A DNA stretch of 64,000 bases. Origin: Nitrospirota bacterium. Its GTDB lineage: Bacteria; Nitrospirota; Thermodesulfovibrionia; Thermodesulfovibrionales; Magnetobacteriaceae. The notes under the pieces are model-generated. The model was not told the origin of the DNA, made no database searches, and worked only from the letters and a program-made list of their open reading frames with translations. This document shows positions 3,060 to 64,000 of the stretch, in pieces. Where the stretch lies: assembly GCA_015233895.1 (NCBI GenBank), contig JADFXG010000001.1:1-64000 (forward strand). The letters are read 5' to 3'. Positions within the stretch are counted from its first letter, which is position 1. Each line of letters opens with the position of its first letter. A program made the translations under genes and the position numbers.

Positions 3060-6000
3060 TTAACCCAGCTCATCTTTTATTAACCTTTCAAGGTCGTCAT
3101 CGTTTAAGTCATCTATGTAATCAAGGTTGTCTGACTTTTTACCTGATATGCCTGTCGTTTCATTACTCTTTGCAGATTCATCATTTGCAAAAAACTCATT
3201 TTTCAAATTATCAGATATAGCCCTTATCGTGGGGTAACTAAAGAGAAACCCCACAGGGAGCGCAATGTTAAGCTCTTTTGAAATGAGATTACGAAACTCC
3301 ACAGTCATTAGAGAATCAAAACCCTGATCCATTAGTGGCTCTTCTATCAAAATATTAGCGTCTCTATCATAGCCAAGTATCCGGTTAACTGCGCCCTTTA
3401 TATAGGAAACAATAAGTTCTCCCCTGCTTTCGGCGGATGCGGCTCTAAGATTTTTAAGGATGTCCGATTCTGGCACATCTCCAGTATTTAAAATCTCTGG
3501 TGAAGCACCATCGGATATTTCCCGGTAGAAATATTCTAAAAATCCTGAGTTTATCCCTTGAGGAAGCCGTGTTAAGTACGTATGCCAATTTATATCTATG
3601 ACACACGTGTTTGTGTGCTTGTCATAGAGAAGTTTTTCTAAAATTGATAGTCCGTCTTTTACTTCTATTTTGTTAAAGCCAATTGCCTCAGTGTTTTCAG
3701 GTCTTTTTGCAGCCATCCCAGTGTTTGCCCAAAGGCCCCAATTAATTACAATAGTCCTGATGCCACAACCTGAGAAATAATGTGCCGCTGAGTTAAGGAA
3801 AGCATTAGCGGAGGCGTAGTTAGACTGCCCGGCGCTTCCTAATACAGATGCAGCCGAGGAAAAAAGGACAAAGAAATCAATTTCTCTGTTTTCTATAATA
3901 TTATAAAGATTCCATGTGCCGGTTACTTTTGGCTCCATAACTTTTCTAAATCTCTCCGCATCCTGATTTACTATCACACTGTCATCTAAAACACCTGCGG
4001 CATGAAACACTCCCCGAACCTGCGGCATCTCTGTATCTATAGCTCTAAAGAGCCGCTCAACATCCTCTGTGACAGCAACATCGGCTGACATCACCCTCAC
4101 AATGACCCCTTGTGCTTCAAGCCGCGATATTTTTTCCCGCGCCTCCACACTTGCCTCATGCCTGCCCGTCAGCACGATATACCGCGCCCCTTTTTCAACA
4201 AGCCACTGTGATAACTCAAGACCCAGTGCGCCCAGTCCGCCTGTTATTACGTAGGTTGCGTCATTACGGATAAGCGAGGCTGAAACACTATCTATCTTAA
4301 GCACTACCTTGCCAACGTGTTTGGCTGCCGCCATGTATCTATAGGCTGATGAGGCGTCAGTTATCGGAAACACCTTATGAACCAGTGGCTTTAACGCACC
4401 TGAGTTTAAATGCGATGTGACTGTTTTTAACGTTTCTTTTATAATGAGAGGCGTTTGCTTCGATACCTCGCCCATATCAAAGCTATGATATGAGACATCA
4501 GGCCGGTAACGTTTTACCTCATCAATCGTCCATATGCCGATTTTACCAATTTCAATGAAACGCCCCCCTTTGGAAAGCACACTCAGACTTTTGGGAATGT
4601 ATTCGCCGTTAAGGCTGTTTAATACCATGTTTACGCCGCGCCCTTGAGTTAGAGCCATCAACTCATCCGAAAAATCAAGGCTCCGTGAATCCATTATTTG
4701 ACTAACACCCTGAGCCCTTAAAAAATCCCACTTGCCGCGGCTTGCAGTTGCATAAATATCCGCTCCAGCCATCTTTGCAATGTTTACTGCAGCAAGCCCC
4801 ACACCCCCTGCCGCTGCATGAATCAGTATCTTCTCGCCAGCCTTAAGCCCGCCACACACTATGAGACCATACCATGCGGTCAGATAGGTTAGCGGCACTG
4901 TGGCAGCCTCGGTGTAACTCAGGTTTTCAGGCATCAGTGACACGAAATCACTGTTTACTGTCGTATAGGTTGAAAATGTCCCGTTAACCGGAGCCGCTAT
5001 AACCGAATCACCGGGCTTTTTGTCTTTTACACCTGTGCCAATACGGCTGACAACCCCTGAGCACTCAAAGCCAAATACCACATCCTGTGGAGCCTTATTA
5101 CCGCTGTATTCCCTGAGCATTCCAAGAGCGTTCAGCACATCACGGAAATTAAGCCCTGCTGCCTTTACCTCTATCTCCACCTCGTTTTCAGAGGGATTTT
5201 CCCGAGTTGCCGGTTTCAACTCCAGTGCATCCAAACTACCGTACTCAGTGAGTCTTAACGCTGTTTTTTCGGCATTCTGTAGTGCCTCAGCACTGAATTC
5301 TTTCGCATTGCGTCTCTTAAGACGGCAGACATACCTGCCATCATTTCTCATTGCCACCTGCTGTTCTTTGTCTTCATTAAACAACTCATTATAAATAAAC
5401 AAACTTTCGTTCTGTTCGATTGTTGCGGGTAAATCAATCAGTTGTGCGGCAAGCTCCGGATGCTCAAGAAACAGAACCCGGCCAAATCCCCACACCGGCG
5501 ATTGGTATGGGATTACATTTATCCCCTCATCATTCCCAACAGGCCATACCCCGCGGGTTATTATCATAAGTTTTACGTTTTCATGTTTCACAAGCGTCTG
5601 CACTGTATGAAGTAGCCCAATAACTCCGAGATGGTTAACGCCGAACTCAGAGCCAGAAACTCCGGCGCTCCATAAATAAACAACACCATTAAGTCTGCTT
5701 ATGGAGGCAAACAATTTTTCAAAATCACCCGCAGACTGAGGGTTTATCTCATAGCCTTTATTATCGGGAAGTTCACTGTATGCGTTCCCAGGTCTAACAT
5801 AAACACTTTCTAAACCGTTTTCCTTAAAATAAGATGAAAGCTGCCCTCCAACACCGTCTTTGTTAGTAAATATCGCCCATAAACCACTGTGTATTGATAA
5901 TTCTGCAACCTGATTTGCATCTTTCCTTTCCCAGTTAATATCATAAAGAAAATCATTGTGCCTGGTCTTAGAGAGAAGTTTAGTGCGGTCTGCCTTTTTA

Positions 6001-9000
6001 GCCGTAAGTCCTTCTATAAACATTAAAGGTGTTCCATCCTCTGTATATACAGTAAAGTTGAGTTTTATTTCATTGTCAGTTTTTAATGTTATTTTGGCAT
6101 GGCTCCACAGTTTCGTAACACTTTGGAGGGTTGCATGTAATGCGCCAAAGCCCACAGGAAGGAATGTTTCTTTCATATCTATTAATGCAGAGGCTGTCTG
6201 CAGTACGGCATCTATCGCTATAGGATGTATATTGTATTTGGATGAATCCATTGCCGCAGTATCAGAAAGAATTATCAAGCCAAGAGCTTCCTCATCTTTA
6301 CTCCACAACTTTTGAATTGCCCGAAAATCAGTTCCATACTCCAGTCCTTGTGATGAAAACTGCTTGTATATATTTGCTACATCGTGTTCTTTAATGCAAC
6401 GTTTTTTCACGGACTCCAGCGATTCAGTTATATCAAAACTACTATTGTAAACTGTCCCGTTTACGTGTAAAACCCACTGAAGGTTGCCATCAGTGTTTTC
6501 TAAAGCACTGAATATTTTAAAGGCAAACTCTCCGTTTTTTTCAGGCATAATAAGAGTTTGAATTTTTATCTTGTCGTCAGTTTCCGAAATTATTAAGGGC
6601 TGTAAAATATTAAAGTCTTTTATGGCTATTGTCTCAGTTTTCAGTAAAAATTTAGCAGCAGTAAGAGCCATCTCGATAAATACTGCGGCAGGTACAACTG
6701 CATAGCCGTAAATGCGGTGTTGTTTTATAAAATCAGGGGATTCATAAGAAAACTCGTTTTCAAAAACTACCTCCCCTGTTGCTAAAGGACGCCTTACGCC
6801 TAAAAGCGAATGTGAAGCATCCGGCATAAATGCTCTTGGTTTAATATCAATCCAATATCGTTTGCGTACAAATGGATAGTTTGGCAGCACTGCAACTTTT
6901 TTATAGCCATATGGAGCGTTAAACTCTCTCCAGTTAATGTCCATGCCGCAGACGTAGAGTCCGCCAAGGGTTTTTAGTATCTGTCTCCAGTCATTTTGAT
7001 CTGTCCTCTTAACGCCGGTGGTCGCTGACAACAGAGATGGGAGCCATGCATTTGCTTTGTCATCAACACACCTTTTGCCCATGCCAAGAAGCACTGCTCC
7101 CGGGCCCAGTTCCACAAACACCCTGTAACCGTCTCTATACAGTGTCTCAATACCTGCTAAAAACCTCACTGTCCCTCTAAGGTGCTTTACCCAGTAGCTG
7201 GTTGACTCCCCGCCGCAGTAATAATCTCCGCTAACGTTTGATACAACCGGTATTTTGCCTCTGTGATAGACAACTTTATTAGCAGTAAGAGCAAAGCTTT
7301 CCAACACAGGCTCCATCAGCCGCGAATGGAATCCGTGTGATACTAAAAGTTCTTTGCTCTTTATCCCACGCTCTGAGAGACGTTTGCACGTTTCCATTAC
7401 AGTATCCCGCACCCCTGAAATCACAACGCTGTCATGCCCGTTAACCGCTGCTATGGAAACATCATCAGAAAATAATTCTTCTTGCACCAATGTTTCACTT
7501 GCAAACACTGCTGCCATTGTGCCCTCTCCTAAAGCCTCCCACATCAAGCGTCCGCGCTCAGATACAAGCATTAGAGCATCCTCAAGCGAAAACACTCCGG
7601 AAATACATGCAGCAGTGTATTCACCTATACTGTGGCCTAAAAGAGCTCCCGGCTCAATTCCCCAGGATTGCCATAACTTGTACAAACTATACTCAAGAGA
7701 AAATAACACAGGCTGAGCATATCGGGTTTCATTGAGAACCTTAGCCGATATGCCGCCATACATCAATTCCAAAAGAGGCACATCCATGTGTTTTTGCAGT
7801 ATCTTGCCGCATTCTGTGAGGGTATCTCTGAAGACAGGACTGCTTTCGTAAAGGCTGCGTCCCATGTTTTGTGAAAGTCCGCCCTGTCCGGTAAAAAGAA
7901 ATGCAATCTTAGGATGCCGCTCTGGTAACAGTATTTCTTGTGCCTCAGACAACCCTTTAAAAATCTCCTCAGAGGTTTGTCCTATAGCAAATCTGCGCTT
8001 ATTAAAATGATTCCGTCCAATGTTTGATGTGTAACAGATGTCAGAAACTAAAATGTCGGGTTGTGAAGCTAACAACTCTTTATATCGGTCAGAGAGCTCA
8101 GAAAGGGATTCATCAGTCTTAGCTGAAAGTGTCAGTATGTGAACAGGACGATTAAGCTCGGACTCAACTCTCTTATGTATAGGCGCCTCCTCTAACACAA
8201 CATGGGCATTTGTTCCGCTAAAACCAAAAGAACTTACTCCGGCAATCTTTTTACCGTTCCATGAGCGTCCTGAGGCTACCTCAATAGGTATTGCCGCCCA
8301 GTCAATGTGCGGATTTGGAGTTTTAAAGTGCAGATGCGGGGGAATTGTCCCGTGCTGCATTGAAAGCACCACTTTTATCAGTCCTGCCACACCTGCAGCA
8401 GCCTCCAGATGTCCGAGGTTTGTCTTTACCGTGCCTATTATAAGTGGGGAGGCCTTACTCTTTACTGTACTAAATACTGCGCCAAGAGCTCTGACCTCTA
8501 TAGGATCACCTAAAGCAGTGCCTGTGCCATGTGCTTCTATATAGCTGATCTCTCCCGGCTCCACTCTGCCATCAGCAAGAGCACTGCGTATCACACGCTC
8601 CTGGGCAGGCCCGCTAGGCACAGTGAGTCCCCCGCTTGGCCCGTCCTGATTAACAGCGCTGCCTCTTATTATAGCAAGCACATTATCCCCGTCAGAAAGC
8701 GCATCGGAAAAACGCTTGAGCACTATAACACCACAACCCTCTCCACGCACATAACCATCCGCTGCCGCATCAAAAGTTTTACAACGGCCATCGGAGGAGA
8801 GCATCCGCGCTCTAGAAAAAATAATATTAGGCGCAGGTATGAGAATAAGGTTTACGCCTGCAGCAATGCTCATATTGCATTCCCTGCGTCTGAGGCTTTG
8901 TACGGCAAGATGCATGGCAACCAGGGATGATGAACAGGCAGTATCAATGGACATACAGGGCCCTGTCAGACCAAAAGTATAGGACAGACGGCCTGCTGCT

Positions 9001-9542
9001 GCACAAAGACCGGCGCCTACGCCGCTATAGGCATTTATCAAACGGGCATCCAAATCGGTAAACTGAAGCGCCCCATACTCAAATCCGCTTATACCAACAA
9101 AAACACCAGTGTTACTGCCATATAGAGCATCCGCAGCAATTGAGGCATTTTCAATAGCCTCCCATGTAACCTCTAAAAGAACACGGTGCTGGGGGTCAAT
9201 GTTGACCGTCTCCTTTGGGGAAATGCCAAAAAGGTGTGCATCAAATGTATCAACGGAATCCAAAAAACCGCCGTAGCGGCAATACATCTTGCCCGGAGCA
9301 TCTGGGTCGGAGGAATAATAATCATCAATATTCCATCGGTTAGCTGGGACAGTAGTTATGGCGTCAGTTCCACTTTCAAGCATTTTCCAGTAGGTATCGG
9401 GGTTGATAACACCGCCAGGCAGCCGGCACCCTACACCTATAATAGCTATCGGCTCACGCTGCTGGTACTCTATATTTTCTAAACGGCCTCTCATATCTTT
9501 AAGTTCCATGAGAGCCTTTTTCATTAATGACTGGTTATCCAT
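3060..9542 (-). CDS. Type I polyketide synthase, one fully reducing module (KS-AT-DH-ER-KR-ACP)
   Basis: This 2160-residue multidomain enzyme elongates acyl chains and reduces each beta-keto group fully, giving saturated fatty-acid-like products. Visible in order: a short N-terminal docking-like helix (1-28); KS about 30-455 with Cys203 in DTACSSS, His338 in EAHGTGT and His378 in NLGH; AT about 555-870 with Ser638 in GHSIGEY and an HGFHS motif most like malonyl-type enzymes; DH with His942 (HxxxGxxxxP) and Asp1111; ER with the nucleotide motif AAAGGVGLAA near 1575; KR with GGLGALG near 1767 and Tyr1909; ACP with Ser2077 in DSLMT. There is no methyltransferase or thioesterase. The layout matches mycocerosic-acid-type and glycolipid PKSs. 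It lies 58 bases downstream of galU on the same strand. Product and release mechanism are unknown. Confidence 0.95.
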   Translation of the reverse strand: MDNQSLMKKALMELKDMRGRLENIEYQQREPIAIIGVGCRLPGGVINPDTYWKMLESGTDAITTVPANRWNIDDYYSSDPDAPGKMYCRYGGFLDSVDTFDAHLFGISPKETVNIDPQHRVLLEVTWEAIENASIAADALYGSNTGVFVGISGFEYGALQFTDLDARLINAYSGVGAGLCAAAGRLSYTFGLTGPCMSIDTACSSSLVAMHLAVQSLRRRECNMSIAAGVNLILIPAPNIIFSRARMLSSDGRCKTFDAAADGYVRGEGCGVIVLKRFSDALSDGDNVLAIIRGSAVNQDGPSGGLTVPSGPAQERVIRSALADGRVEPGEISYIEAHGTGTALGDPIEVRALGAVFSTVKSKASPLIIGTVKTNLGHLEAAAGVAGLIKVVLSMQHGTIPPHLHFKTPNPHIDWAAIPIEVASGRSWNGKKIAGVSSFGFSGTNAHVVLEEAPIHKRVESELNRPVHILTLSAKTDESLSELSDRYKELLASQPDILVSDICYTSNIGRNHFNKRRFAIGQTSEEIFKGLSEAQEILLPERHPKIAFLFTGQGGLSQNMGRSLYESSPVFRDTLTECGKILQKHMDVPLLELMYGGISAKVLNETRYAQPVLFSLEYSLYKLWQSWGIEPGALLGHSIGEYTAACISGVFSLEDALMLVSERGRLMWEALGEGTMAAVFASETLVQEELFSDDVSIAAVNGHDSVVISGVRDTVMETCKRLSERGIKSKELLVSHGFHSRLMEPVLESFALTANKVVYHRGKIPVVSNVSGDYYCGGESTSYWVKHLRGTVRFLAGIETLYRDGYRVFVELGPGAVLLGMGKRCVDDKANAWLPSLLSATTGVKRTDQNDWRQILKTLGGLYVCGMDINWREFNAPYGYKKVAVLPNYPFVRKRYWIDIKPRAFMPDASHSLLGVRRPLATGEVVFENEFSYESPDFIKQHRIYGYAVVPAAVFIEMALTAAKFLLKTETIAIKDFNILQPLIISETDDKIKIQTLIMPEKNGEFAFKIFSALENTDGNLQWVLHVNGTVYNSSFDITESLESVKKRCIKEHDVANIYKQFSSQGLEYGTDFRAIQKLWSKDEEALGLIILSDTAAMDSSKYNIHPIAIDAVLQTASALIDMKETFLPVGFGALHATLQSVTKLWSHAKITLKTDNEIKLNFTVYTEDGTPLMFIEGLTAKKADRTKLLSKTRHNDFLYDINWERKDANQVAELSIHSGLWAIFTNKDGVGGQLSSYFKENGLESVYVRPGNAYSELPDNKGYEINPQSAGDFEKLFASISRLNGVVYLWSAGVSGSEFGVNHLGVIGLLHTVQTLVKHENVKLMIITRGVWPVGNDEGINVIPYQSPVWGFGRVLFLEHPELAAQLIDLPATIEQNESLFIYNELFNEDKEQQVAMRNDGRYVCRLKRRNAKEFSAEALQNAEKTALRLTEYGSLDALELKPATRENPSENEVEIEVKAAGLNFRDVLNALGMLREYSGNKAPQDVVFGFECSGVVSRIGTGVKDKKPGDSVIAAPVNGTFSTYTTVNSDFVSLMPENLSYTEAATVPLTYLTAWYGLIVCGGLKAGEKILIHAAAGGVGLAAVNIAKMAGADIYATASRGKWDFLRAQGVSQIMDSRSLDFSDELMALTQGRGVNMVLNSLNGEYIPKSLSVLSKGGRFIEIGKIGIWTIDEVKRYRPDVSYHSFDMGEVSKQTPLIIKETLKTVTSHLNSGALKPLVHKVFPITDASSAYRYMAAAKHVGKVVLKIDSVSASLIRNDATYVITGGLGALGLELSQWLVEKGARYIVLTGRHEASVEAREKISRLEAQGVIVRVMSADVAVTEDVERLFRAIDTEMPQVRGVFHAAGVLDDSVIVNQDAERFRKVMEPKVTGTWNLYNIIENREIDFFVLFSSAASVLGSAGQSNYASANAFLNSAAHYFSGCGIRTIVINWGLWANTGMAAKRPENTEAIGFNKIEVKDGLSILEKLLYDKHTNTCVIDINWHTYLTRLPQGINSGFLEYFYREISDGASPEILNTGDVPESDILKNLRAASAESRGELIVSYIKGAVNRILGYDRDANILIEEPLMDQGFDSLMTVEFRNLISKELNIALPVGFLFSYPTIRAISDNLKNEFFANDESAKSNETTGISGKKSDNLDYIDDLNDDDLERLIKDELG

Positions 9543-59964: not shown

Positions 59965-61298
59965 ACATACTGATAGCAGAGGACGAGGACGTATCAAGAA
60001 AGCACCTTATCTATGCTTTAGAGGATGAGGGATACAGCACACGCGGCGTTACTAATGGTCTTTTGGCTTTAGAGGAGATAGAGAAACGGCAGTACCATGT
60101 GCTCATAACAGATATAAAAATGCCGGGAATGGATGGCCTTGAGCTATTTGCAATCATACGGGAAAAGTACCCTGAAATCAGTGTAATCATTATAACCGGC
60201 TATGGAAACGTACAGGCAGCGGTTGAGGCTATAAAGGGAGGTGCTGAGGACTATATTACAAAACCTTTTGACATAGATGATCTTCTTGTAAAGCTGTCAA
60301 AAATCAAAGAAAGACACTCCCTCAAAAGTGAGATAGAAGCGCTAAAGGCATCAGCCGGAGTAAGCGGCAAAATCCCCTTCATTTATAAAAGTGCCGGGAT
60401 GCGTCTTGTCATGGATATGATTGATAAACTTAAGGATTCCGACTGCAATGTGACAATTACAGGACCAACCGGTTCAGGAAAAGGACAGGCGGCAAAACTC
60501 ATACACCACTTAAGCGTAAGGGCTGAAAAACCGTTTATAGGAATCAACTGTGCCGTACTGACTGAGGAACTTTTGGCAAGCGAACTGTTTGGCCACGAAA
60601 AGGGAGCATTTACAGGGGCGGTTGCTACAAAAAAGGGACTGATAGAGCTAAGCCATGCTGGCACCTTGTTTCTTGATGAGATTGCAGAGATGCCGACAAA
60701 TCTGCAAGCCCGGCTTTTAAAAGCCATCGAGGACGGGGAGTTTTACCGCGTAGGGGGAACAAAGTTAATCAAGGTGGATGTGCGCTTTATTGCCGCAACA
60801 AACCATAACATCAAAACCCTGATAACACTGGGTAAGTTTCGGGAGGACCTCTACTACCGGCTTAACGTCATGGAGGTCAATATTCCTCCTCTTAAGGAAC
60901 GAAAAGATGACATTAAACCGCTTGCAACGTTCTTTCTTAAAAAATATGCCGCAAAGTACAAAAAACACATAACCTCAATAACGGCTGAGGCGACAAACAC
61001 CCTGATGGGATATGATTTCCCTGGAAATGTGCGTGAGCTTGAAAACATAATCGAACGGGGTGTAATCATAGAGGCCACAAATGCCATAACGCAGGGAAGC
61101 CTCCCACAGGGCCTTTCCTTTTTTCAGATTGAAACTCTAACTCCTGGCAAAATCCTCACTATTGAGCAGCTTACTAAAGACTACACACAAAGAGTGATTG
61201 AAATGTTTGACGGCAACAAATCCCTTGCAGCAGACGCCCTTGGCATTTCCCGTACCAGCCTGTGGAGACTGCTTAAAGAGGAGTCAACGGATGAGTAG
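59961..61298 (+). CDS. NtrC-family sigma-54-dependent response regulator
   Basis: 445 residues. Receiver with Asp51 (ITDIKMPGMDG), AAA+ domain with Walker A GPTGSGKG (Lys kept, though differing from the usual GESGTGKE), GAFTGA near 218 and FLDEIAE Walker B, and a Fis-type helix-turn-helix (SLAADALGISRTSLWRLL) at the end. Start GTG 59961 overlaps the kinase stop. Together they form a two-component pair behind the ClC channel. Confidence 0.94.
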   Translation: MNILIAEDEDVSRKHLIYALEDEGYSTRGVTNGLLALEEIEKRQYHVLITDIKMPGMDGLELFAIIREKYPEISVIIITGYGNVQAAVEAIKGGAEDYITKPFDIDDLLVKLSKIKERHSLKSEIEALKASAGVSGKIPFIYKSAGMRLVMDMIDKLKDSDCNVTITGPTGSGKGQAAKLIHHLSVRAEKPFIGINCAVLTEELLASELFGHEKGAFTGAVATKKGLIELSHAGTLFLDEIAEMPTNLQARLLKAIEDGEFYRVGGTKLIKVDVRFIAATNHNIKTLITLGKFREDLYYRLNVMEVNIPPLKERKDDIKPLATFFLKKYAAKYKKHITSITAEATNTLMGYDFPGNVRELENIIERGVIIEATNAITQGSLPQGLSFFQIETLTPGKILTIEQLTKDYTQRVIEMFDGNKSLAADALGISRTSLWRLLKEESTDE

Positions 61299-61466
61299 AG
61301 GGGTAGTAACGATGTATGATTGTAACCACAATGTATAGGAAACTACTTGCAGGTTCTAACCTTTATGATTTTTCGTGATAGACTGGCTTAACTCCCTTCT
61401 TTAAAGTGTTACGACATCATCTCCTGAAAAAGCGAAGTTTACATTTGTAAATACTTTTTGTTACCC

Positions 61467-62378
61467 TCAGTCGCTATTTTCACTATAGTGTGAGAGTTCA
61501 TACCGAACCCGGCCCGTACCTACTTGTTTAGTATGAACCTTTATCTGCGCTTGTTTACCAACAATTTGGTTTATTTGATTTGCATCCTCAATATCAGCAC
61601 CAACCTTTCCCAAAATCACTTCCTCAGTTCCTATAACCTTGAATTCGAAGTTACGATGGTTTGGCAAAACACCGAGAAAGTAACCATTAAAAATTTTATC
61701 ATCTTCATGAATATTATCTTTACTGAGGCGGCCTTCACTACGACGTACCTGGCCAACATCGGCAAATCTAAACACATCGCCTTTGAAGTCAAGCGCACAT
61801 ACTGCCTCATGGTCTGCTATTGTTTTAAAGAATGATCTCAGAGTTTCCACAGCACGTGGGTCTGCTTCAGAAATGGCTTCTGTCAGATCGTCATCAGTCC
61901 CTAATGATGCTTTCATAATCCTCTTGGTCTGCTCTATAGCAGATTCTATCAAAGACTCTTTAGGGAAAAGCATGGCATCTTTTGGAGCTTCTTCAAGCTC
62001 AAAACCAAAAGAACCCAAAGCTGTACCAGTTATTAACAATTGAAACTCTTCCCGATTTGGAATTGCACCGCGTGTGCCAAGCGAACTAGCCTGACTTGCG
62101 CCGATAGCAGCAACTGCATCAGCAAAAGCATTAATGGCCTTTGCACCAAATTCCGCAAATATACCATGACTTCCGACTGTAGGCTTTCCACGAAATGTTA
62201 AACTAGCACGGATGGGCTCCCGCGTAGGAGCTGACACTGAAGCAATCAAATCCTCAACTTCCTTCTTGCGCGTCTCTAAGCCTATACGATCAATGACGTT
62301 AACCTCGGGAATCTGCTTGAGCAAGCTTTCCAAAGTAGTTTTTTCAGCCTGCAAATGATAGTATTCATTTATATTCAT
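61467..62378 (-). CDS. Protein of unknown function paired with a DUF6932-like protein
   Basis: 303 residues, no membrane helix or signal. A coiled-coil N-terminus (about 5-48) is followed by TFRGKPTVGSHGIFAEFGAKA near 63, a block LLITGTALGSFGFELEEAP near 113, and a C-terminal, probably beta domain (about 215-300) with FKVIGTEEVILGKV. I recall similar sequences beside DUF6932 genes, but no function. GGAGG lies before ATG 62378, and the ATG overlaps the upstream stop (ATGA), so it is made together with that protein. Confidence 0.65.
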   Translation of the reverse strand: MNINEYYHLQAEKTTLESLLKQIPEVNVIDRIGLETRKKEVEDLIASVSAPTREPIRASLTFRGKPTVGSHGIFAEFGAKAINAFADAVAAIGASQASSLGTRGAIPNREEFQLLITGTALGSFGFELEEAPKDAMLFPKESLIESAIEQTKRIMKASLGTDDDLTEAISEADPRAVETLRSFFKTIADHEAVCALDFKGDVFRFADVGQVRRSEGRLSKDNIHEDDKIFNGYFLGVLPNHRNFEFKVIGTEEVILGKVGADIEDANQINQIVGKQAQIKVHTKQVGTGRVRYELSHYSENSD

Positions 62379-62956
62379 TGTTGGCCTCCTTGGTCTTTCA
62401 TTTCATCAAGGTTAGCCTTTGCAGTTGAATCATCTATCTGTGAAAGATCAACCTGCAGATATCCTTTCCACTGGTTGTTTCGCCTGTGAGACCACATGCT
62501 GTACCAATAAGTGAAATGTTGGACAAGCAATTCAAGTTTATTGCTATCCAAATGTACGAAATAAGCGTCAACATGATGATCGGCTTTTGTATGAACAGGA
62601 TTGAAAAGACGAGGATGAGCTGACAAAATATCTTGTTGTGTTTTTCCTGAAGGCAAATGGAAGAATGTTACTACATCTATATCAATAGGAGAACGACCTT
62701 CAATAATTTCAATATTCTCAAGAAAACTTCCATCAATCCACTGAAATCCTTCAATAAGCCCGGCACTATATAAATTGGCACGGAATGTAAGTAAGCCTGA
62801 CAAAATACCCTTGCGTTGAGTGGTTGTACCGAAACGTAACACAATATCAGTAATTGAAACAAGATATGGTGAGCGATCTACAGAAGTAGGATTATTTACA
62901 TTAATTGGCGGCAAAACACCTTGATGATTCCAGTCTGGTATCGTGTTAGTTATCAT
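62375..62956 (-). CDS. DUF6932-like protein with nucleotidyltransferase-like motifs
   Basis: 193 residues. It starts with IPDWNHQGVLPP, then a helix, FQWIDGSFLENIE with Gly-Ser at 76-77, and DIDVVTFF with Asp92 and Asp94. The G-S ... D-x-D spacing matches the nucleotidyltransferase fold. Its C-terminal half (HVDAYFVHLD) supplies another acidic strand. First gene of a coupled pair, with GGAGA upstream. In other MNT-type families such pairs act as toxin-antitoxin or defence modules; here that is inference. Confidence 0.7.
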   Translation of the reverse strand: MITNTIPDWNHQGVLPPINVNNPTSVDRSPYLVSITDIVLRFGTTTQRKGILSGLLTFRANLYSAGLIEGFQWIDGSFLENIEIIEGRSPIDIDVVTFFHLPSGKTQQDILSAHPRLFNPVHTKADHHVDAYFVHLDSNKLELLVQHFTYWYSMWSHRRNNQWKGYLQVDLSQIDDSTAKANLDEMKDQGGQQ

Positions 62957-63360
62957 AATTCTGTCTCCACTTGTCTTATTCTATATCTAACTAAATTTTA
63001 TCTTAGTTTTTCTAAAGAGTATTTCAAGGTTCTGTTGCATTTATTCTTGTAATTATATTATAGCAAGATTATACGTGTAAATCCACATTTTCCTCAATGC
63101 CCAAGGAACTACGCTTTGTATATGTACTGTCTGCTACCCAATTCATTCCCAACTACTGCTTTATAGATATAGCTTTTGTGTACTGTTATATCACTTCGTT
63201 AAAAAAAATCCAACACCCCTATATCACTTTCTTCCTGTTACTGCAATTGTCCTCAAAGTCTGCCTGTCAAAATTCTCGTAAAGATCAACCATTATGCCTA
63301 TGTTAAGGTTATTTATTTTTCAGAAGCCAGCTTGCCATACTATGTCGTAGCACGTGCAAC
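62957..63360. other. Intergenic region before the GT9 gene
   Basis: About 400 bases without a gene I can support. A 22-codon minus-strand frame near 63226-63294 (MVDLYENFDRQTLR...) is the only protein-like stretch; I do not recognise it and it may be a remnant. The promoter of the DUF6932 pair should lie near 62990-63060, but no clear -10 stood out. Confidence 0.45.
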
Positions 63361-64000
63361 TTATAGTTTCCCCTTTATCACAGACCAGACCTCATCTGTG
63401 GTAATATCATCGAGGCATTTACTCTTTTTTGAACCGTCACAGCCATCCTGTCCGCAGGGGATACAGTCCCAGTCTCGTTGAATAGCGGTGTGAATGCCGG
63501 AGTGCTGAACAGAGTTTCTTTTGGTGTAGGGAGTATCTGCTGAGCTGTTATTGTCCCACGGGCCCCAGTTGAAGACTCCGGAGGGACCAAACAAGGCGAC
63601 AACCGGCGTATTAACTGCCGCAGCTATGTGCATAGGGGCCGAGTCAACACCAAAAAACAAGGCGCACCTCTGTGATATAGCTGCAAGACTTTTGAGTGTC
63701 GTTTTTCCAACCAAAGAAATTACACCGGCCTTTTGTTTAACCAACGACAATATACTGTTTGCCCTCTCTGTCTCTTTAGTGTCCGGCGATGATGTAACCA
63801 CAACTCTGACACCATAGCCGAGCAAATTTTCTATTATCTCAGCCATGCACTCATCAGGCCAGCACTTAAAAAACCATCTCGATGTCGGATGTACATGAAC
63901 CACTCTGTCAGCATCACTAACGCCGTTAATTTTAAACAACTTTCTGATGTCATCCAGTTCTTTGTCAGGAATTTGAATCCGCACGGAGTAATCCATGGCT
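63361..64000 (-). CDS. Glycosyltransferase family 9 (heptosyltransferase-like), cut by the window
   Basis: The C-terminal part of about 211 residues is visible. It has VHVHPTSRWFFKCWP, VVVTSSPDTKE, FFGVDSAPMHIAAAVNTPVVALFGPSG and ...WGPW, the donor-binding half of GT9 enzymes such as the LPS heptosyltransferases. Full members have about 350 residues, so the N-terminal half is likely beyond 64000; the ATG at 63996 is probably internal. It acts in LPS core assembly, supporting a Gram-negative host. A Cys-rich C-terminus (CIPCGQDGCDG) fits the RfaQ-like branch. Confidence 0.85.
   Translation of the reverse strand, partial: AMDYSVRIQIPDKELDDIRKLFKINGVSDADRVVHVHPTSRWFFKCWPDECMAEIIENLLGYGVRVVVTSSPDTKETERANSILSLVKQKAGVISLVGKTTLKSLAAISQRCALFFGVDSAPMHIAAAVNTPVVALFGPSGVFNWGPWDNNSSADTPYTKRNSVQHSGIHTAIQRDWDCIPCGQDGCDGSKKSKCLDDITTDEVWSVIKGKL

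Follow-up and report, generated by a model that had tools for sequence, protein, structure and literature searches.

A DUF6932 nucleotidyltransferase gene and its overlapping partner from a Nitrospirota genome: a divergent member of the unproven defence candidate PDC-M63AB

Two overlapping genes on the minus strand of the window, the whole stretch of 64,000 nucleotides of Nitrospirota DNA that was analysed, raise the question of whether they form a toxin-antitoxin or defence module and which of the two would then be the toxin. Both open reading frames, termed A and B, are confirmed, together with the predicted ATGA overlap. The locus is laid out as follows.

62375-62956, minus strand: gene A, DUF6932 minimal nucleotidyltransferase, intact ORF of 193 aa
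61467-62378, minus strand: gene B, PDC-M63B-like partner, intact ORF of 303 aa
62375-62378, minus strand: ATGA overlap, formed by TGA of A (62377-62375) and ATG of B (62378-62376)
62957-63360, minus strand: non-coding stretch upstream of A, 404 bp, 34% GC
63081-63052, minus strand: promoter-like box TTTACA-18-TATAAT upstream of A, from a pattern search

The overlap likely couples the translation of B to that of A. Promoter and terminator patterns around the pair are no commoner than in shuffled sequences. An RNA component was also considered and rejected, with zero Rfam matches at 61200-63400. The pair stands alone between unrelated genes, as had been claimed. The NtrC-type regulator gene beside B lies on the plus strand, ends at 61298 and is convergent; the heptosyltransferase-like gene upstream of A lies on the minus strand and ends at 63361. 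This copy lies outside any prophage and outside any restriction-modification (RM) locus. Elsewhere in the window, a minus-strand ORF of 2160 aa at 3060-9542 is the longest by far. B is carried by two of the four genomes of the host genus, and isolate nDJH6bin1 of the same genus (Nitrospirota) carries, on a truncated contig, a B that is 97% identical. In the complete genome G016, also of the host genus, the downstream flank is kept (83% identical to the regulator end) and A-B is missing; no clean empty site can be drawn in G016, where synteny stops at the regulator gene. The pair is strain-variable in the host genus.

Gene A matches PF22014 (DUF6932) over the whole model (1-142) with an E value of 4.2e-31 and 108.7 bits (cut-off 27), as the original prediction of a DUF6932-like protein held, and phrog_9194 with an E value of 1.5e-33. 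The G-S and D-x-D motifs read from the single sequence are invariant in 108 diverse homologues, as are R48, R59 and Q72. The motifs of A are located as follows.

62723-62731, minus strand: residues 76-78, G-S-F, nucleotidyltransferase motif I; G76, S77 and F78 invariant in 108 sequences
62675-62683, minus strand: residues 92-94, D-I-D, two catalytic carboxylates; D92 and D94 invariant in 108 sequences
62567-62569, minus strand: residue D130, third carboxylate on the next strand; 99% conserved, starts model strand 129-135
62462-62488, minus strand: residues 157-165, H-x-R...W-K-G, C-terminal part; H157 99%, W163 98%, K164 98%, G165 99%

Gene A thus carries the GS/DxD/D active-site signature of the nucleotidyltransferase superfamily. 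When its AF2 model (pLDDT 94.6) is used in a VIA search, the best eight rows are all nucleotidyltransferases, with modest Z scores of 5.3-4.4 (AadA 5.3 over 112 residues, Sulfolobus (SSO) MNT 4.9, AAD(9) 4.5), and the lower rows contain MNT antitoxins, poly(A) polymerase, CdnE (3.7) and HI0073 (3.7). Foldseek with this model gives zero matches at E < 0.001, and a sequence search of solved structures with A or B gives no credible match. The distant DUF6932 members L177 and L184 have sub-cut-off matches to Pfam Polbeta and NTP_transf_2. The nucleotidyltransferase fold class of A, on which the proposal of a two-gene system depended, is established, and A is likely to be catalytically competent. 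In a Nitrospirota relative (L186:1537-2254), the weakest above-cut-off DUF6932 match is an MNT-like gene that overlaps a HEPN-like gene, which suggests that DUF6932 grades into MNT. Within the limited literature covered, no paper names DUF6932.

Gene B matches no Pfam family, and it matches phrog_18731 with an E value of 1.5e-69. Its AF2 model (pLDDT 94.4) starts with a helical hairpin, continues through a mixed core and ends in an OB-like barrel. The parts of B are located as follows.

62238-62378, minus strand: residues 1-47, N-terminal helical hairpin; model helices 3-22 and 28-47
62001-62015, minus strand: residues 122-126, G-S-F-G-F, where B is most conserved; G122, S123 and G125 invariant in 115 sequences
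61470-61712, minus strand: residues 223-303, OB-like beta barrel; VIA Z 8.8 with SilF and about 7 with SSB, PriB and RPA subunits

The conserved residues of B are chiefly glycines, prolines and aromatics, with a few Arg and Glu. Among 115 sequences no histidine is conserved (at most 47% per column), and the conserved columns hold no catalytic-looking residue set. From this composition we infer that B probably binds rather than catalyses. HEPN identity of B is ruled out, because the 115 sequences have no conserved RX4-6H. Of the proposed MNT-type architecture, the toxin-antitoxin or defence reading is therefore kept and the HEPN part is not. Comparison of B with viral models by Foldseek matches the whole chain to a phage protein of the DUF6575 family (E 6e-12, 288 columns, TM 0.38), and a search for DUF6575 (PF20215) by sequence in the window's genome gives no match up to E 10. 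Scanning viral contigs with a single B sequence finds nothing, and alignments are required.

A and B belong together. B is present in 66 of the 66 viral loci found with A, A is present in all 25 viral loci found with B, and A is detectable in 71 of the 80 genome loci retrieved with B. Four of the nine genome loci without a detectable A are near contig edges, and the rest have A remnants or nothing. The order is A then B in all loci, and the 4-base overlap is the modal spacing (68/161 loci, repeats included). The pairing is far above chance, and the expected co-occurrence is borne out.

The pair is not new as a two-gene system, contrary to the original prediction. A matches the PADLOC model PDC-M63A with an E value of 1.9e-11. 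B matches PDC-M63B weakly by hmmscan (E 0.021), and PDC-M63B gives no hmmscan match on the E. coli copy of the window's branch, but profile-profile alignment of B with M63B of the classical branch by hhalign gives a probability of 97.1% and an E value of 5e-11 over 260 columns. Because of the PDC-M63A match and this alignment, the window pair is placed, on sequence grounds, in PDC-M63 as a divergent branch of the PADLOC candidate PDC-M63AB. The Nitrospirota loci L177 and L178 belong to the classical branch (E 1e-54 to 1e-94). In the classical M63B protein at L178:1954-2883, residues 157-219 match SUKH_5 close to the threshold (E 5.6e-5). The window pair is a divergent member of a listed, unproven defence candidate, which has been deleted once, from E. 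coli NILS69, where it is prophage-borne, with no visible effect on 10 phages, all virulent (PMC12409345). The deleted copy is a relative, probably from the other branch. As the published negative test used virulent phages only, a challenge with temperate phages could reopen the matter.

Natural losses of the two genes are lopsided. Among 133 non-redundant loci away from contig edges, both genes are whole in 118, A is broken and B whole in 14, and the reverse is seen in one (L119), in counts that under-represent losses of B, since B was the seed of the genome scan. The bias of damage toward A has a p value of about 1e-5 by gene length. Because of the B-seeded scan, frameshift-type damage was also counted separately, and among the B-seeded loci only it affects A five times and B never (p 0.007). 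In the A-seeded viral set, A and B are lost once each. In about five separate deletions, the catalytic core of A is gone, and the C-terminus of A and the whole of B are kept (L021; the Akkermansia-like L051/L057/L064; L054; L059; L066). The Pseudomonas relatives L066 (7729-7996) and L068 (7454-8005) are a natural knock-out pair, in which a 274-bp deletion removes the A core of L066 and leaves B intact. B is tolerated without a working A, and the reverse is rare. Such an asymmetry would be expected if A were a harmful enzyme kept in check by B, and it argues against B acting as a free toxin. The sole locus with a whole A and a frameshifted B (L119:8554-9440) reflects either a sequencing error or a viable A alone.

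The surroundings of the pair are rich in defence genes, as had been anticipated. In all, 361 PADLOC models are matched by the nearest neighbours of A-B (132 genes) versus 31 by far neighbours (84 genes), and a type I methylase is found in 9/132 versus 1/84 (p 0.05). On a Bradyrhizobium plasmid (L003:7468-12304), A-B adjoins a multiubiquitin / ThiF adenylyltransferase / DUF6527 cluster. Two niches recur. One is the lysogeny region of prophages. In the E. coli prophages L174 and L175 a cI-like repressor gene is followed by A and then B, and the classical branch directly follows cI in the lambdoid phages mEpX1, PhiR30_1 and Erwinia phage 59; in lambda this place is filled by rexA-rexB. Of 58 non-redundant viral A-B loci, 36 have the end of a same-strand CI-like repressor gene no more than 1 kb upstream, versus 5.8% of random positions. 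Two A-B alleles occur at low frequency among 5,426 E. coli genomes (8 and 18 genomes). The other niche is the type I RM locus. Type I RM genes flank A-B on both sides, with the same orientation, in 10 of 79 genome loci, eight further genome loci have type I restriction genes on one side, and Pfam confirms HsdM, HsdS and/or HsdR at four of these loci (L016, L032, L039, L041). The hosts range from archaea to proteobacteria (Methanomicrobiales to Binatota, Comamonadaceae and Methylomicrobium), and explaining the RM-linked label on the B tree takes four changes or more. Within the window's own B clade, 5 of 11 rows are RM-linked (L009, L011, L015, L016, L018). HsdM is not found in the window's genome, so restriction is not required for A-B, and a dependence on RM is rejected.

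DUF6932 genes are also found first in overlapping pairs with other partners, which are XRE proteins (L176, L219, L223, L227) or XRE-ImmA/IrrE proteins (L180, L220, L221, L225). PD-lambda-2 is a validated toxin-antitoxin-like Abi system of HigB-like A, XRE-ImmA/IrrE B and beta-like C, in which toxicity comes from the second gene and rescue from the first (PMC9519451, Vassallo et al. 2022). The partners in L180 and L221 match PD-lambda-2_B with E values of 2.5e-78 and 7e-78, and a PD-lambda-2_C homologue lies directly downstream in G241, L220 and L225, and about 10 kb off, past an IS30, on the L221 plasmid. PD-lambda-2_A is found in none of four plasmid records (L220, L221, L222, L225). Because DUF6932 stands beside PD-lambda-2_B and _C homologues, it holds the place of the HigB-like gene, and these operons are apparently an unlisted PD-lambda-2 variant. 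The DUF6932 and PD-lambda-2_B operons are at L180:182-1971, L220:2618-5362, L225:2588-4266 and L221:2501-4221, and the hosts of such PD-lambda-2-like operons are Nitrospirota, Sinorhizobium, Marinibacterium and Acinetobacter. PD-lambda-2_B finds no match in the window's genome. A hairpin common to window-type B and the XRE partners was sought by direct profile comparison, which failed, the reversed controls scoring higher. At L185:76-1388, a DUF6932 gene overlaps that of a 327-aa partner with the XRE-partner hairpin (E 6e-7) and weak core similarity to PDC-M63B (2.4e-5) and PDC-M32A (E 0.001), which is possibly a bridge between the partner types. Joint ancestry of these types is a lead, not a result.

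We favour, with moderate confidence, the reading of A-B as a mobile toxin-antitoxin/abortive-infection module of the PDC-M63AB kind, in which A would be a toxic transferase and B its restraint and sensor. A would be a small nucleotidyltransferase effector. B, translated by coupling to A, would bind A and hold it inactive until infection, when a phage product or disturbed nucleic acid would be sensed through the OB-like barrel and core of B. Once released, A would attach nucleotides to a target in the host, the likeliest being tRNA 3' ends or a protein, and growth and phage production would stop. The toxicity of A, its restraint by B, the anti-phage activity, the trigger and the target are all putative parts of this scheme. 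The A-first gene order would suit an antitoxin-first arrangement, against A as the toxin, and the deletion from NILS69 without effect counts against a defence role, although it concerns a relative. The modest VIA Z scores of A, and the place of the window copy outside prophages and RM loci in a genome lacking HsdM, also weigh against this reading.

The polarity may be the opposite. MNT silences HEPN by attaching nucleotides, and A could likewise be an enzymatic antitoxin that silences a toxic B. A resembles MNT folds (2rff, 1no5, 8xeh and 8xeo in the VIA search) and is encoded first, the invariant Ser in the GSFGF loop of B could be a modification site, and the toxic second gene of PD-lambda-2 (PMC9519451) keeps this reverse polarity alive for A-B. 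However, B has neither the conserved HEPN motif nor another catalytic set, it is whole in the 14 A-broken loci, one of which is closely matched to an intact relative, and A without B is never found. Opposite polarity, the main rival, is rather unlikely.

The niches suggest other roles. A and B may act jointly against competing phages, like RexAB, as a lysogeny or superinfection-exclusion module with no division into toxin and antitoxin. The rexAB place after cI in lambdoid phages and the 36 viral loci downstream of a repressor gene argue for such a role, but A-B has no sequence similarity to RexA or RexB, and many copies are outside prophages, in RM loci, on plasmids and, in the window, beside an NtrC gene; we regard it as improbable. 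A restriction back-up guard, silent while the linked type I enzyme works and released by a phage anti-restriction protein, is slightly harder still to credit. PrrC is such a guard, released once an anti-restriction protein disables its linked type I enzyme. The ten loci with hsd genes on both sides and on the same strand, spread from archaea to proteobacteria with several origins, and the five RM-linked rows of the window's B clade are consistent with a guard. Yet HsdM is missing from the window's genome, most copies have no link to RM genes, unrelated cargo also collects in RM loci, and the window copy lacks the PrrC/RloC-like placement inside an hsd locus. A housekeeping or metabolic pair unrelated to defence would agree with the single published test, which saw no defence activity (PMC12409345), and with the ordinary neighbours in the window, but is very improbable in view of the patchy, strain-variable distribution (2/4 genus genomes), the wide horizontal spread and the enrichment in prophages and RM loci.

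The module with A as toxin and B as restraint may be one case of a broader scheme. Tentatively, and with more doubt than for A-B itself, DUF6932 could be a general, swappable nucleotidyltransferase effector wired to DUF6575-like OB partners in PDC-M63, to XRE partners, or to XRE-peptidase partners in PD-lambda-2-like operons, forming a superfamily of phage-triggered transferase toxins that fills the lambdoid exclusion slot and type I restriction operons. With this analysis, an unexplained candidate that extends from archaea to lambdoid coliphages is identified as nucleotidyltransferase-based and gains a polarity that can be tested. It also joins PDC-M63, the PD-lambda-2-like operons and the rexAB position, for which no prior linkage was found. 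Within an incomplete coverage of the literature, we found no earlier report that A is a nucleotidyltransferase, that the pair recurs after cI and among hsd genes, that losses fall mostly on A, or that DUF6932 is linked to PD-lambda-2.

Among known systems, CBASS gives no PADLOC match, and the fold match of A to CdnE is weak (Z 3.7). In AbiE and MenAT the nucleotidyltransferase is the toxin, and A-B may work likewise; the AbiEii toxin and AbiEi antitoxin domains have no Pfam match in A-B up to E 10. Lambda RexAB occupies the same position, downstream of cI on the same strand, as prophage A-B, though not as the window copy, and homology of A-B to RexA or RexB is ruled out (BLASTP E 0.85, hhalign probabilities < 1%). 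DUF6575, which forms part of one of the defence systems of Vassallo et al. (PMC9519451), resembles B at the fold level only, and the domain packing differs (TM 0.38). PD-lambda-2 differs from the window pair, in which B is not an XRE-ImmA/IrrE protein and there is no C gene. HEPN-MNT modules are, like A-B, two-gene operons with a minimal nucleotidyltransferase, but B is not HEPN, and A, at 193 aa, is larger and has a C-terminal motif of its own. The window pair differs from PDC-M63AB in its divergent B and in its longer A with an insert between GS and DxD, whereas the gene order, the 4-base overlap and the post-cI niche are common to PDC-M63AB and the window family.
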